Of a stretch of DNA of 64,000 bases, positions 26,781-32,384 are shown piece after piece. Under the pieces are notes generated by a model. It ran no database searches and was not told where the DNA came from. It worked only from the letters and a program-made list of their open reading frames with translations. This DNA comes from Nonomuraea sp. MG754425 (GTDB taxonomy: Bacteria > Actinomycetota > Actinomycetes > Streptosporangiales > Streptosporangiaceae): positions 1-64,000 of the forward strand of contig NZ_SSXE01000024.1 of assembly GCF_021699195.1 (NCBI RefSeq), given 5' to 3'. Position 1 is the first letter of the stretch, and the number at the start of each line of letters is the position of its first letter. The translations under genes were made by a program, and so were the position numbers.

Positions 26781-29606
26781 TTAGCTGGGGAGGTGGCGGG
26801 CGAGTTCCGTCCGGGACCGGGCGCCGGCCTTGCGCATCGCGGCGCTGACGTGCTTGTCGACCGTCTTGGGCGACAGGAAGAGCTGCCTGGCGATCTCCTG
26901 GTTCGTCATCCCGGCGGCGGCGAGCCTGGCCACCTGGAGCTGGCGCGCGGACAGCCCGCCGTCCGCCCTGGGGCTCCGTCTGGGCGCGGTGGGCCGCAAT
27001 CCCCACCCGCGAGCCAGCCCGGTGACGCGGTCGAGGTCCCAGTCCGCGCCGAGAGTGGTGTAGGCGGCGATGGCCTGCCGTACGCACTCCTCGGCCGACG
27101 GATCGCCGAGCGCGAAGAGGCAGGCGGCCCGCCGCTCGGTGGCCAGGGCGGCCTCGTGGCCGGCGGGCAGCGCCGCGTAGGCGGTCGCCGCCGCGGCGAA
27201 CTCGGTGGCCGCCTCCGCCCAGCGCTCCGCCCCGCCGGCGAGCAGCCCGCGCGCGTGCGCCAGTGCCGGCACGGCGAGCGGCGCGTCCAGTCCCCGGACG
27301 CCCAGGCCGTACCGGCGGACCAGGTCGGCGGCCCCGCCCTCGTCCTGCGCCGCCAGGAGCGCCTCGACCGCCGCGGGCACGGCGCGTACGCCGACCGGCC
27401 ACAGGTCCCTGCGCTCCCATGACGCGAAGACCCCCGCCGTCTCCGCGACCGCCGCCCCGGGATCCCCGCGCGCGGTGTCCAGCCTGAGCAGCGCGGCGAC
27501 CGGCGCGGGCAGCGTGTCCAGGTCTCCGCGGACCCCGGCAGCCCTGATGATGCCGACCAGCGCGTCCCGGCCGGCGGCGGGGGCCAGGCACGCCGCCAGG
27601 CCGTCCAGGACCGTGCGGTGGTGCGGGAGGTCCGCGTAGTGCTCGCGCAGCGCCTCGATCTCCTCGCGCAGTCCCGCCCAGTCACCGCGGTAGTAGCGCG
27701 CCGAAGCGAGCTCGCAGCGCAGGCGCACCTTGTCGTGGTCGGGCGACCCGCTCTCGCCCAGGCCGGCGAGCGCGGTCGACAGCAGGTCGTACGCCGCCTC
27801 GTGGTGGCCGCTCGCCACGGCGCCCGCCGCGATGGACTTGTAGGCGCGGGCCACCTGCCTGCTGACGGGTTCCTCGCCGGCCTCCCGCAGGACGCGGCCG
27901 GTCAGCTCCGACCAGCGCGGGTCCCCGGCCACGGCGAACACCATGGCGACCTTGCCCAGCACGAACAGCCGCAGGCCCCCGTCGCCGTCCTGCGGGAGGG
28001 TGTCCAGGGCGCGTTCCAGCCAGGCCACCCGCTCGGCGAGCGGACGGTCGGCGGTGGTGGGGATGCCGAGCCCGACCATGGCCCAGGCGGCCAGCTCGGG
28101 ACGGTCACCGAGATCCTCGATCGCGTCGGCGAACGCCTGGCGCACGCGTAGCTGGTCCGTCCTGGTCAGGTCGATGTGGAGGGCGAGTTCGAGCCGGAGC
28201 TCGCCGCGTACGGTCCTGGGCAGGTCGTGGCCGAGCGCCTCGGCCAGCAGGTCCCCGATCGCCCGGACCCGGCCCGTGGCGCGGGCCGCCCTGCCCAGTC
28301 GCGTCGATAGCTCCGCCCGTCGTACGGGGTCCAGGGGGGCGTGCCGTAGCACGTCCTCCAGCAGGCGTACGGCCTCGGCGTCGTCGCCCAGGGCCAGCGC
28401 CCGGTCGGCGGCCGTGGCGGTCGCCGCCACCCAGGAGGTGATCCGGCCGGCGCCGCGCAGGTGATGCGCGATCTGCCCGTAGGGGACCGGGTGGAGCGCG
28501 CCGACCGCGGTGGCGGCGCGGGCGTGCATGGCCTGTCTGCGCCCGAGCGTGATCGCCGCGTAGGCGGCCTGGGCGGACAGGGTGTGACGGAACTCCACCA
28601 GCCCGTCCCGTTCCACCAGCAGGCCGGAGGCCAGCGCCTCGTCCGCTCCCGCCGCCCCCGGCGCCTCGTCCAGGTCCGCCACCTCGGCCAGCACGCTCAG
28701 GGGTACGGCCAGCCGCAGCACCGCCGCGGCCTCGACGACCGCGCGGGCCCGTGGCGGCAGGTGCGCCACCCGCTCCTGCACCGAGGCGCGCACCCCCGCG
28801 GGCACGTCGAGGCTCTCCAGCGCGCGCCTGGCCCAGCCGCCCTCCCAGCGGATCAGCGTCCCGCGGCTGCGCAGCAGCGCCAGCAGTTCCTGCACGGCCA
28901 GGGGCAGCCCCGACGCCCGGGAACGCAGATGCTCGGCGAACTCCGCCGACACGTGCTCCGTCTCCAGGATGGCCGCGGCCAGCGCACGGGTCTCGGCCAC
29001 GTCCAGTGGCGGCAGCGTGAGGGAGTCGGCGGTGACCGTGCTCGCGGCGCGCGATGTCACCGACCGCACCGCGGCCCCCGCCTCCTCGCCCCGGTAGGTG
29101 AGCACCACCGACAGCCCGTGCGGGAGCACCGTGACGAGGTAGGTGAGGAACTCGACCGTGAGCTCGTCGGCCCAGTGCAGGTCCTCCACCACCAGGACGG
29201 CGGGCCCGAGCGCGGACAGCACCTCGGCCAGCCCGCGGAAGAGCCGGTGACGCTCGGCCGCGCGGTCGTCGAGCGCGGGCGGCGCCTCGGGCAGGACGTC
29301 GCCGAGTTCGGGCAGCAGCGGCCGGAGCGAACCCGCGACCGGGGACAGCGGGGCGCCCGCCACGTCCGCGCCCCGCCCGCGCAGGGCCTCCACGATCGGG
29401 CCGAGCGGGAACGGCTCGCGGACCTGGGCACATCCGCCGATGAGGAACCGCCGGCTGGACCGGGCCGCGAGCTCGGCCACCAGCCGGGATTTCCCGATCC
29501 CGGCCTCGCCCTCGACCACGACCACCGACGGGGCGCAGGCCAGTGCGGCCTCCAGCCGCTCCAGCTCCCTGGCCCGGCCTACGAGGGGCGGTGGGACGGC
29601 CGCCAC
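26781..29606 (-). CDS. LAL-type LuxR-family ATPase transcriptional regulator
   Basis: A 941-residue large ATP-binding LuxR regulator. Walker A is GEAGIGKS (33-40) and Walker B is AVLVVEDLHWADEL (about 142-155). A long helical TPR-like middle follows (about 380-860). The C-terminal LuxR HTH (about 880-938) reads LSARQLQVARLAAAGMTNQE and SPKTVDKHVSAAMRKAG. These proteins act as pathway-level activators. The downstream same-strand neighbour is the S8 protease, so that gene is the first target to test. Confidence 0.92.
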   Translation of the reverse strand: MAAVPPPLVGRARELERLEAALACAPSVVVVEGEAGIGKSRLVAELAARSSRRFLIGGCAQVREPFPLGPIVEALRGRGADVAGAPLSPVAGSLRPLLPELGDVLPEAPPALDDRAAERHRLFRGLAEVLSALGPAVLVVEDLHWADELTVEFLTYLVTVLPHGLSVVLTYRGEEAGAAVRSVTSRAASTVTADSLTLPPLDVAETRALAAAILETEHVSAEFAEHLRSRASGLPLAVQELLALLRSRGTLIRWEGGWARRALESLDVPAGVRASVQERVAHLPPRARAVVEAAAVLRLAVPLSVLAEVADLDEAPGAAGADEALASGLLVERDGLVEFRHTLSAQAAYAAITLGRRQAMHARAATAVGALHPVPYGQIAHHLRGAGRITSWVAATATAADRALALGDDAEAVRLLEDVLRHAPLDPVRRAELSTRLGRAARATGRVRAIGDLLAEALGHDLPRTVRGELRLELALHIDLTRTDQLRVRQAFADAIEDLGDRPELAAWAMVGLGIPTTADRPLAERVAWLERALDTLPQDGDGGLRLFVLGKVAMVFAVAGDPRWSELTGRVLREAGEEPVSRQVARAYKSIAAGAVASGHHEAAYDLLSTALAGLGESGSPDHDKVRLRCELASARYYRGDWAGLREEIEALREHYADLPHHRTVLDGLAACLAPAAGRDALVGIIRAAGVRGDLDTLPAPVAALLRLDTARGDPGAAVAETAGVFASWERRDLWPVGVRAVPAAVEALLAAQDEGGAADLVRRYGLGVRGLDAPLAVPALAHARGLLAGGAERWAEAATEFAAAATAYAALPAGHEAALATERRAACLFALGDPSAEECVRQAIAAYTTLGADWDLDRVTGLARGWGLRPTAPRRSPRADGGLSARQLQVARLAAAGMTNQEIARQLFLSPKTVDKHVSAAMRKAGARSRTELARHLPS

Positions 29607-29808: not shown

Positions 29809-30765
29809 TCAGGTCCAGGTCATGTTGATCGAGTGTTCGAAGTTGATCCAGCCGGCGCGCTTGAAGGCGTTGGCCATGGGGACGTTCTCGAGGTCCGTGG
29901 ACGCGCGGATGCGGCGGACGTCCTCTTGCGTGCTGAGGACGCGGGTGCCTTCGGCGAGGATGTCGTCGATGTAGCCGTTGCCGCGGTGCTCGGGGAGTAC
30001 GGCGAGGTAGCCGATGACGGGGTTGTAGTCGTTGCGGCCCGGGGTGACGAAGCCCACCGGGTCGCCGTCCGGCAGGGTCGCGATCCGCCACCAGCCCTGG
30101 GGGCTGCGGTAGCGGGCGAGTTCGTCCTCGTAGTGTCTGACGGCTGCCTCGCGGGCGGGCATCCGGGTCAGGTCGCTTCTGCTGTGCGCGTCGAGCGTCC
30201 CGTCGAGGACCCGGGTCATCAGGGAGAGGAGTTCCTCGGTGTCGCGGACGGGGCGGAACGTCAGGCGTCCGGTCGGTTCGGGGATCGGGGTTCCGGGACG
30301 CCATTCCAGGCGGAGTCGTTCGACGAACAGGCGGGCGCCGGTCCGCTCCAGCGCGTTCATCCGGTCCTCGACCGGTCGCCTGGCCGCTTCGGCCTCGCGC
30401 CAGTCGGGCGGGACCATGCGGATGTAGTTGGGCGGGGCGGCGTCCGCCGGGACGACTTCGGCCATGGCGGCCCGCAGCAGCCGTTCGCCGAGGTCCACGC
30501 GCCGGCCGCGGTCCGCGATGGCGTCGTCGATGTCGAGGACGTCCAGGAGGAACGGTGTGTCGTCGCCCGCCTGGCTCCACCAGGCGGCCCTGGCCAGGAG
30601 GCGGTCGCCCTGGAGGGCGAACCACATCCACCCCGGCCGGCGGCGGCCGGCGGCGAGGTCGTCCGCCAGTTCCTCGTTGAGGAGGTAGGGCAGGCGGCAG
30701 AAAAGGTCGAGTTCGTCAGGCCCGGTGATCGGGCGGATGGTCAGGTCGTTCTGTTCCACGGTCAA
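29809..30765 (-). CDS. Double-domain GNAT acetyltransferase with leader ORF upstream
   Basis: A 318-residue protein with two GNAT-like halves. The N-terminal half (about 5-130) is degenerate. The C-terminal half (about 165-315) has the acetyl-CoA loop LAVLPEHRGNGYIDDIL and the motif B NVPMANAFKRAGW. The start is TTG 30765 with GGAG at 6-nt spacing; GTG 30759 is an alternative. A 17-codon ORF with a near-perfect RBS ends 36 bp upstream, behind two alternative hairpins, which suggests translation-dependent control as in some drug-resistance acetyltransferase or methylase genes. The substrate is unknown. Confidence 0.87.
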   Translation of the reverse strand: MTVEQNDLTIRPITGPDELDLFCRLPYLLNEELADDLAAGRRRPGWMWFALQGDRLLARAAWWSQAGDDTPFLLDVLDIDDAIADRGRRVDLGERLLRAAMAEVVPADAAPPNYIRMVPPDWREAEAARRPVEDRMNALERTGARLFVERLRLEWRPGTPIPEPTGRLTFRPVRDTEELLSLMTRVLDGTLDAHSRSDLTRMPAREAAVRHYEDELARYRSPQGWWRIATLPDGDPVGFVTPGRNDYNPVIGYLAVLPEHRGNGYIDDILAEGTRVLSTQEDVRRIRASTDLENVPMANAFKRAGWINFEHSINMTWT

Positions 30766-30801
30766 AGCACGCTCCGGGTGAGGGCGCTCGGCCGCCCCGG
30801 G

Positions 30802-30855
30802 TCAGACGTGGTCCGCGGCCCGGGAGGGCACGAGCACGGTGATCATGGCGATCAT
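30802..30855 (-). CDS. Putative 17-aa leader peptide of the GNAT gene
   Basis: Reads MIAMITVLVPSRAADHV and stop. AAAGGAGGGA, close to a perfect anti-16S match, lies 7-8 nt before the ATG, much stronger than the RBS of the GNAT itself. Stop to GNAT start is 36 nt. A segment at the end of the leader (GGCCGC) can pair with GCGGCC just after its stop, near the GNAT RBS. That it is a regulatory leader is inference. Confidence 0.6.
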   Translation of the reverse strand: MIAMITVLVPSRAADHV

Positions 30856-30876
30856 GGGCTTATCCCTCCTTTCGGT

Positions 30877-30911
30877 TGGTGGCCCCTGCTCTGGGTCGGC
30901 GGGGCCGACCA
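30877..30911 (-). promoter_or_regulatory. Mutually exclusive hairpins before the leader ORF
   Basis: Transcript hairpin 1: 30910-30905 with 30899-30894 (GGTCGG/CCGACC, 5-nt loop). Hairpin 2: 30911-30901 with 30886-30877 (TGGT-C-GGCCCC / GGGGCCACCA, one bulge, 14-nt loop). They share 30901-30910, so only one can form. Hairpin 2 ends 5 nt before the leader RBS. Confidence 0.55.
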
Positions 30912-31130
30912 CAAGGTTTATCCGATCGCCTGTTCCCGCGCAAACGTGTTCGTCGTGATCCGGCGGGACGTCCGCGCCGTCGTCAACGACCGAGGGGTCG
31001 TGACGGCGGGGGTCGATGAGGCCGTCAGTCTTCAGTATTTGTCCAGAAAGTCGCTTTAGCAGTAGTCGTTCGCCGCGGCGTGGTACCAATGTGTGCTTCT
31101 TCAACATCTGGTGCTCCAGGGAGAAATGTG

Positions 31131-32384
31131 ATGACGCTCTCCAGGCGGCGGCTCCTGCAGACCGGGGCCGCGGTGCTGCCCGCCGTGGCGCTCGGCGCGC
31201 GACCTGCGGCAGCGGCGGCGGCGGGGGCCGCGGCGATCCCGACGACCGGGGTCGTGCCGGCCGCGCTCAGCGGGTTCGACACGGCGATGAAGACGTACAT
31301 CGCCGAGCGGGCCATCTCGAGTGCCCAGCTCGCGGTGGCCAAGAACGGCAAGATCCTGCTCGCCCGCGGCTACGGCTCCTACCAGCGCGCCGGCGCGACC
31401 GTGAACGTGCAGCCGACCTCGCTGTTCCGGATCGCCAGCCTCAGCAAGAGCCTGACCGGGGCCGCGCTGGCCCGGCTGGCCCAGGACGGCAAGGTCAGCC
31501 TGGGCGCGAAGGTGTCGGACCTGCTGGGCCTGTCCACCACGGCCGACCCGCGGCTGGCGAACGTCACCCTCTGGCGGCTGTTGCAGCACACCGGCGGCTG
31601 GGACCGCGGCGTGTCGAAGGACCCGCTCTGGATCGACCACACGATCGCGGCGTCCCTGGGCGTGGCGTTGCCGATCGGCCACGCCGACATCACGAAGTAC
31701 GTCACCGCGCGCCCGCTCGACTTCGCCCCCGGCAGCAAGTACGTCTACAGCAACTACGGCTACATGCTGGCCGGCCGGGTGATCGAGAAGGTCTCGGGCA
31801 TGAGCTACGAGGCGTACGTCCGGGACACGCTGCTCGCCCCCGTGAAGATCACCCGGATGCTGCTCGGCCAAAGCGTGGAGCCGTTCGCCACCGAGGTGAA
31901 CTACGAGTCGCAGTACACCAACAAGAGCGTCGTGGACGGCTCGGGCGCGACCGTGCCCTACCCGTACGGCGGCTTCAACATGCCCAACCAGGACGCCAAC
32001 GGCGGCTGGCTCGCCTCGGCGGTGGACCTGGTCAAGTGGGGTTTCGTCTTCGACGCGGCGGGCCCGGTGCTCAACGGCACGTCGATCTCGCGGGTGTTCG
32101 CCAAGCCGGAGACCGGGGTCACGGCCGGCGGCTCCTGGTACGGCCTGGGCTGGCACGTCCGCACCAACAACCTCGGCACGCTGAACACCTGGCACAACGG
32201 CTCGATGCCGGGCACCTTCAGCTTCCTGGCACGGATCCAGAACGGCGTCAGCTACTGCGCGATCTTCAACCGGCGGGAGGAGACGGGCACGCCGGACTAC
32301 GACTCGATCGACCCGATCCTCGGCCAGGCGAGCAGCGGCGTGACGACCTGGCCCACGACCGACCTCACCTCGCGGTACTTCTGA
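31131..32384 (+). CDS. Tat-exported serine hydrolase (class C beta-lactamase/DD-peptidase fold)
   Basis: A 417-residue protein with an N-terminal Tat-like signal (LSRRRLLQTGAAVLPAVALG). The beta-lactamase-type fold has SxxK at S103-K106 (ASLSKS), YxN in YSNYG and the HTGGW segment common in this family. The HxG-like motif may be WHNGS near residue 360. Members hydrolyse D-Ala-D-Ala peptides or esters; the substrate is not determinable. GGGAG precedes ATG 31131; upstream in-frame codons are not needed. A hairpin overlaps the stop. Confidence 0.9.
   Translation: MTLSRRRLLQTGAAVLPAVALGARPAAAAAAGAAAIPTTGVVPAALSGFDTAMKTYIAERAISSAQLAVAKNGKILLARGYGSYQRAGATVNVQPTSLFRIASLSKSLTGAALARLAQDGKVSLGAKVSDLLGLSTTADPRLANVTLWRLLQHTGGWDRGVSKDPLWIDHTIAASLGVALPIGHADITKYVTARPLDFAPGSKYVYSNYGYMLAGRVIEKVSGMSYEAYVRDTLLAPVKITRMLLGQSVEPFATEVNYESQYTNKSVVDGSGATVPYPYGGFNMPNQDANGGWLASAVDLVKWGFVFDAAGPVLNGTSISRVFAKPETGVTAGGSWYGLGWHVRTNNLGTLNTWHNGSMPGTFSFLARIQNGVSYCAIFNRREETGTPDYDSIDPILGQASSGVTTWPTTDLTSRYF

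Follow-up and report, generated by a model that had tools for sequence, protein, structure and literature searches.

The ermC and ermB attenuators depend on internal stalls that are set by the drug together with the nascent peptide. The locus that we describe here resembles them in having a leader ORF and, by prediction, mutually exclusive helices and a Shine-Dalgarno (SD) sequence hidden by default (a likeness that draws in part on the available portion of PMC12121999), but its peptide is not conserved. In the toiL uORF of E. coli topAI-yjhQ, the available portion of the report describes trapping of ribosomes at the start codon by tetracycline or retapamulin, which relieves a hidden RBS (PMC12121999). 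As there, the GNAT locus has a short leader ORF and a next gene whose RBS would be hidden by RNA pairing; however, in the same portion the toiL leader itself is proposed to mask the RBS and a stall anywhere opens it (PMC12121999), whereas in the GNAT locus a third strand can be taken by either the leader codons or the RBS, the modelled switch opens mainly at the start, and gene and peptide are unrelated. Start-codon stalling also opens the downstream gene in the Streptomyces ARE5 ABCF leaders of tiaA and are5sc, for which the accessible part of the account gives a predicted terminator/antiterminator and an ABCF gene (PMC12421871); here the gene encodes a GNAT and no intrinsic terminator is seen. 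Because it has been described for toiL and for the Streptomyces ARE5 ABCF leaders, the principle of start-codon stalling is already known. The leaders of cplR (C. difficile) and vmlR (B. subtilis; compare PMC9226507) likewise combine a short uORF with translation attenuation that hides the SD, as far as the available sections of PMC10201436 go, but their uORFs have about three codons, work by transcription attenuation too and precede ABCF genes (PMC10201436, same sections), whereas the GNAT leaders run to 13-20 codons and their RNA itself takes part in the proposed switch. What is apparently undescribed is a peptide-independent translation attenuator with a shared hub strand before an uncharacterised GNAT. 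A literature search of open-licence papers found no leader reported for such a GNAT, and the five Rfam matches in 30500-31200 all scored far below gathering scores.

The stretch of DNA that we analysed, hereafter the window, is 64,000 nucleotides long and comes from Nonomuraea. On its minus strand lies a leader ORF of 17 codons (30802-30855; MIAMITVLVPSRAADHV, ATG start, TGA stop), preceded by the SD AAAGGAGGG (30864-30872), and 36 nt separate its stop from the TTG at 30765 that opens a GNAT acetyltransferase gene of 318 aa (29809-30765, minus; Pfam PF13302 and PF00583 above cut-off), whose own SD, GGAG (30772-30775, minus), is invariant in 7 aligned congeners. The original prediction had seen this much correctly, namely a 17-codon leader with a strong RBS that ends 36 nt before the acetyltransferase. 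Its claim that the gene has only a TTG start fails in the relatives: the codon at this position is TCG in L005 and L007 and CTT in L009, and a GTG six bases downstream (30757-30759), kept in 7 of 7 leader-bearing congeners, provides a conserved alternative start at 30759. The surrounding 221 nt fold better than 200 of 200 dinucleotide shuffles (z -3.24). In the ribosome-free fold the leader SD is partly paired with leader codons, with a mean pairing of 0.46 over 63 sequences.

The enzyme itself is an uncharacterised GNAT: its best match among solved structures reached only E 0.57, so that it has no solved relative, NCBIfam holds no informative model for it, Pfam gives generic GNAT domains only, and AlphaFold2 on three GNAT sequences gave a pLDDT of 53. 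A large LuxR-type regulator ORF lies directly downstream of the GNAT (26781-29606, minus), and a beta-lactamase-family gene (PF00144; 31131-32384, plus) is divergent from the leader-GNAT unit. Two distant GNAT paralogues in the window's own genome (L002 on G000:C219 and L003 on G000:C14) have no similar leader upstream by eye.

How widely is the leader kept? GNAT searches matched 10 of 54 genomes of the genus at E 1e-60 and 85 of 341 genomes of the family at E 1e-80, the latter in 17 of 68 genera, and upstream DNA was taken for 92 loci, 91 of them distinct (L014 duplicates L008). An intact leader with its SD, the ORF being read from sequence, stands before 81 of the 92 GNAT loci in 15 genera, so the leader codons are conserved in relatives, a point on which the original prediction had staked itself. 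These leaders are 13-20 codons long; 79 were found by a fixed rule, and L004 and L045 were added by hand, L045 being part of this count and left out of the energy tests (80 loci). At 61 of the 81 loci the spacing between leader stop and GNAT start is 33-40 nt. Among the 11 remaining loci, seven have no visible leader (L010, L012, L013, L018, L047, L059, L064), and of the other four, L072 has a leader that lost its stop, the region upstream of L052 is unclear, L011 carries a broken gene and L014 is the duplicate. When 345 genomes of the order were scanned with RNA model R1, which is mostly sequence-based, 73 of them had the leader.

We also considered readthrough or an N-terminal extension as the purpose of the leader and rejected it, because leader stop and GNAT occupy all three relative frames (22, 28 and 31 of 81); L072 is the one stop-loss fusion seen. 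There, 90 nt upstream of the GNAT, the stop has become TGC, and the in-frame leader gives the GNAT a 30-residue extension. Contigs G160:C1, G152:C2 and G148:C1 of genus g35 each carry a pair of GNAT genes, separated by about 15-23 kb, and a leader precedes each copy; in the G160 pair one leader is the stopless L072 and the second GNAT copy has an intact leader (L022).

The leader goes with this gene: outside the collected GNAT loci, R1 matched four places (L126-L129), which lie before damaged gene copies or a remnant: a GNAT with a large internal deletion (L126), one with an early stop (L127), a GNAT remnant (L128) and a leader remnant with no recognisable gene (L129). All four keep the leader wholly or partly, L128 and L129 without its start, and at L011 the leader is lost. 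The broken or shortened copies (L126-L129, L011) hint at repeated gene loss. In a sample of the class, the GNAT was found at E 1e-70 in 21 of 394 genomes. Ten GNAT loci outside the family were read by eye over 220 nt upstream; two, L130 and L146 of genus g87 in another family, have a leader, and none was seen by eye in that interval at the other eight, six of g87 among them. Because L130 and L146 also have the GNATs most like the Nonomuraea form among these extra-family loci, the pattern suggests that leader and gene moved together, and horizontal transfer of the whole unit is probable for these two.

Pairing between leader codons and a strand behind the leader stop is conserved. In the window, helix P1 joins leader nt 19-25 (GTGCTCG, 30831-30837) to the shared strand CGAGCGC (30784-30790), which we call the hub, and helix P2 joins leader nt 31-37 (TCCCGGG, 30819-30825) to CCCGGGG directly after the leader stop (30795-30801), all on the minus strand; P1 is a covarying helix present in the start-state fold of the window, and P2 appears in both the helix test and the window fold. 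Across relatives, P1 pairs leader nt 19-26 (codons 7-9) with an intergenic hub of the GGGCGC type, and P2 pairs leader CCGGGG with CCCCGG after the stop. Of the 63 leaders that were aligned, 60 have the first base of P1 at nt 19, among them the six of 15 and 16 codons; the second P1 pair changes from C-G to T-A in 16 of the 63, and the sixth, occurring as C-G, T-G, T-A, G-C and G-T, is paired in 52.

RNA covariance across homologs had been proposed as a check, and leader codons do covary with the intergenic strand. On alignment A5, in which L048, L075 and L080 count in a mis-registered state, 90.5% of 799 P1 and P2 cells are paired, both sides change in 7 of 13 pairs (4.1 in shuffles), and covariation is 0.239 against 0.151 in shuffles, a value reached by 0 of 500. 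Sliding the partner by 1-3 columns leaves 33-56% paired. The MAFFT alignment splits the hub in three rows and scatters its last base, and L048, L075 and L080 were re-registered by hand; RNAalifold on the full 63-sequence alignment, with the hub split in this way, returned only 3 bp. Since shuffles ignore kinship, strands were also swapped between genera: native P1 has 363 of 378 cells paired, while 2000 cross-genus chimeras average 326 with a maximum of 343. With one representative for each of 14 genera, 77 of 84 cells are paired, a figure equalled by 1 of 5000 permutations (the register of the three rows being uncorrected here). The stability of P1/P2 exceeds the chimera mean in 75 of 80 native sequences. 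The aligned tests cover 63 of the 80 leaders; the other 17 (six of g18, L022, L025, L037, L042, L082-L087, L090) are spaced differently, and for them the analysis goes no further than a list of best helices.

The hub has a second partner. In the sequestering hairpin P3 (30765-30789, minus), hub bases 30789-30784 pair with 30770-30765, and CTC (30782-30780) pairs with the GAG of the GNAT SD (30774-30772); this hairpin appears in the intergenic fold of the window (L001) and in its codon-5 and codon-12 folds, and pairing of the hub and following bases with the GNAT SD and start region is seen in many intergenic folds of relatives. As the hub can be taken up by leader codons or by the GNAT initiation region, and not by both at once, either helix would exclude the other. 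Covariation of P3 is weak in these sequences. In its lower stem, counted by anchors since alignment A6 mis-registers the hub, with L067 and 21 g35 sequences left out, 194 of 205 cells are paired (41 non-g35 sequences) against a cross-genus chimera mean of 194.1; chimeras pair equally well, and between-genus covariation therefore gives P3 no support. By energy, native P3 is more favourable than the chimera average in no more than 51 of 80, with g2, g3, g24, g31, g32 and g58 against, and pairing of SD with anti-SD is better than that of the average chimera in 44 of 63, chiefly through g35 and g30. One change in the window is telling: where the hub has A for G, the start region has the matching T for C (GAGCGC/GTGCTT, where congeners have GGGCGC or AGGCGC with GTGCCT). 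A stem from the leader end towards the GNAT RBS region had been foreseen, and the leader end can indeed pair with intergenic sequence adjoining the RBS. We rejected direct pairing of leader CCTCC with the GNAT SD, which fits some genera (TTCCTTC/GAAGGAA in g31) and fails by eye in g35 (SD GAAGG).

The original prediction had placed the competition further upstream, in two hairpins sharing bases 30901-30910 within the 5' UTR (30880-30910, minus). Both can form in the window, one in its best fold and the other in its free-state fold, but by eye the pair is not conserved in relatives, with little or none of it in L007, L033 and L042, and for this reason we reject it as the switch. The conserved competition is that for the hub, which can join leader codons 7-9 or else the initiation region of the GNAT.

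What has selection kept in the leader, the peptide or the RNA? Within genera, the 56 leaders that have 17 codons give a dN/dS of 1.7 over their whole length, rising to 3.9 in codons 7-12, while a GNAT control of 17 codons at 56 loci gives 0.33; GC-biased codon use may inflate the leader values, and the control has the same bias. By this contrast the peptide is not what is kept, and leader dN/dS does not show the conserved stalling peptide of an erm-type attenuator. A replacement of Ala-Leu by Val-Pro in the leader accompanies a change in the hub strand. Judged from these comparisons, selection acts on the leader RNA rather than on an arrest peptide, and if this reading is right the leader is a clean example of RNA under selection while the peptide that it encodes drifts.

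To place ribosomes on this RNA, each sequence was folded with a ribosome mask on successive leader codons, a crude model whose footprint is taken from E. coli. With a reach of 14 nt beyond the first P-site base, opening the GNAT start cost on average 7.8-8.0 kcal/mol with the ribosome at codons 1-2 and 10.6-11.6 at codons 3-16 (80 loci), the ribosome-free cost being intermediate at 10.4, and in 59 of 80 the start state undercut the average over codons 4-11 by more than 2. A reach of 11 nt gave this margin in 57 of 80, and with 17 nt only codon 1 was cheap (8.0 against 10.6-11.6 at codons 2-13), in 55 of 80. In the window itself the cost was 5.6 at codons 1-2 and 7.5 both at codon 3 and with no ribosome; it rose to 9.6-13.6 over codons 4-12, fell to 6.6-7.9 over codons 13-15 and rose again to 10.4-14.0 over codons 16-18. 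With the ribosome at the start, the hub pairs in P1 with a probability of 0.83 and in P3 with 0.15, P1 being ahead in 55 of 63 sequences; at codon 5 the values are 0.05 and 0.82, with P3 ahead in 60 of 63. The switch index is 3.3 kcal/mol for native sequences against -0.02 for shuffled ones, and exceeds 2 in 57 of 80 against 159 of 1200; synonymously recoded leaders reach 1.1, native leaders being higher in 70 of 80 and in 13 of 15 genera. The mean unpaired probability of the GNAT SD is nearly flat with ribosome position (0.37-0.40 over codons 1-16), and the effect of the ribosome can be seen solely in the energy needed to open the initiation region in its entirety. Switching in the model is absent in genera g24 and g41 and nearly absent in g58. 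In toiL the downstream edge of a start-stalled ribosome lies at +18 according to the available part of the report (PMC12121999), and P1, which starts at nt 19, would begin just beyond such a footprint. The model thus suggests an open GNAT start while a ribosome sits on the start codon of the leader, and a closed one once the ribosome has passed codon 2 or 3.

Taken together, we regard it as highly probable that this leader ORF belongs to a real RNA switch. A cis-acting translation attenuator ahead of the GNAT, turned on by a stall at the leader start, is the best explanation and on balance a probable one, although for the direction taken alone, with the start-codon stall as the ON state, we would give roughly even chances on the modelling. 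Three stretches of RNA would compete: codons 7-14 of the leader, the hub that follows closely on its stop, and the initiation region of the GNAT. Free-running ribosomes would cover the leader codons, the hub would pair with the GNAT SD and start in P3, and the acetyltransferase would be poorly translated. A ribosome held on the leader start codon would instead release the leader codons from the leader SD and end just before nt 19, so that these codons could pair with the hub in P1 and P2, block P3 and let the GNAT be translated. The signal sensed would be drugs or conditions that trap initiating ribosomes. We infer the direction of switching, the inducer and the role of the enzyme. What holds up well in the original prediction, then, is translation attenuation through a leader ORF, given the conserved leader, the covarying helix and the far better modelled switching of native than of shuffled sequences; what finds no support are the hairpins it named and peptide-driven stalling at particular codons.

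Classic internal stalling shares the same general anatomy: a drug or starvation would arrest the ribosome inside the leader, at particular codons in the manner of ermC or at any codon in the manner proposed for toiL, and so expose the GNAT RBS. Core residues such as ITALVSSRG do recur among leaders, and the window's own model is cheap at codons 13-15 as well as at the start. Yet the excess of amino acid changes falls in codons 7-12, the Ala-Leu to Val-Pro replacement goes together with the hub, and across the 80 loci a ribosome at codons 3-16 leaves the GNAT costlier to open than one at codons 1-2. Because the peptide is freer to change than the RNA and the model opens mainly at codon 1-2, we consider peptide-based stalling at particular codons unlikely, and internal stalling as a whole an improbable account of the locus.

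More doubtful still is a constitutive role, in which translation of the leader lowers or couples GNAT translation, by damping or reinitiation, and the helices keep the level low with no signal sensed; the short distance from stop to GNAT start in most loci and the intermediate free-state cost are what one would expect of it, but strong covariation on a strand shared by two helices and a fixed distance from leader start to P1 exceed its needs. Transcription attenuation by a uORF, intrinsic or Rho-dependent, is reported for wblC and for a number of ABCF genes, some of them from actinomycetes, in the accessible parts of PMC7157823 and PMC12421871, but is very improbable here, as no terminator-like site occurs in 30600-31100 of the window and none of the 81 regions between leader start and GNAT start contains TTTT (5 T in 8 occur in 3 of 81), which makes an intrinsic terminator before the GNAT unlikely, and what the alternative helix occludes is the SD and start of the GNAT.

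In the preferred reading, attenuation by a start-codon stall, transcription of the WblC/WhiB7 type would add a further layer in many relatives. The available part of the S. coelicolor WblC study gives the consensus GAAAWY, 3 nt, TKGMNN, 16-19 nt, TANNNT and counts 16 GNATs in the regulon (PMC7157823), and many GNAT leader promoters are alike in having a GAAA box three bases before a TKGM -35; the difference is that the uORF of wblC itself is reported there as transcription attenuation, and that this part of the study describes no GNAT leader (PMC7157823). The full consensus fits 0 of 81 leader regions, a relaxed form (sixth box base free, only the TA of the -10) fits 37 of 81 and no shuffles, and a looser form fits 68 of 81 with a shuffle mean of 0.2. 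Three leaderless GNAT copies of genus g35 (L047, L059, L064) still have a GAAAAGGAGTTGCCG-like promoter box upstream. In the window, alignment with relatives points to a promoter-like site at 30915-30952 (minus), with a -10-like TAAACC (30920-30915), a 17-nt spacer and a -35 TTGCGC (30943-30938); the CGAACA upstream of it is a degenerate form of the relatives' box GAAAWY, the site does not fit even the loosest WblC form, and a sigma-70 scan of 30600-31100 found no promoter. The window's genome has 8 WhiB-domain matches, one of which (L156) carries an AT-hook-like tail, PRGRPRKHP, that we take as the mark of a WblC/WhiB7 protein. Given the relaxed fits in relatives, the WhiB protein in the genome and the degenerate site in the window, WblC control appears likely for many relatives and only possible for the window's own locus.

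A narrower version of the start-codon model goes a step further, and we advance it tentatively: the leader may be a peptide-independent gauge of the start codon, whose switch arm begins at the first base outside the initiating ribosome, so that only initiation-trapped ribosomes would turn on the GNAT, which may in turn inactivate an inhibitor of early translation. If true, it would be the first such attenuator for a GNAT, as far as the literature searched reaches, and a self-made screen for the drugs that the enzyme meets.

In conclusion, because leader frame and RNA switch recur across many actinomycete genera, the locus looks like a real and apparently undescribed sensor of ribosome trouble. 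Actinomycetes are known for making ribosome-targeting antibiotics. If our reading is right, at least 15 actinomycete genera possess an acetyltransferase family, as yet unstudied, that comes with a built-in reporter of translation-initiation stress, and any drug able to open the switch would suggest a candidate for the substrate of the GNAT.
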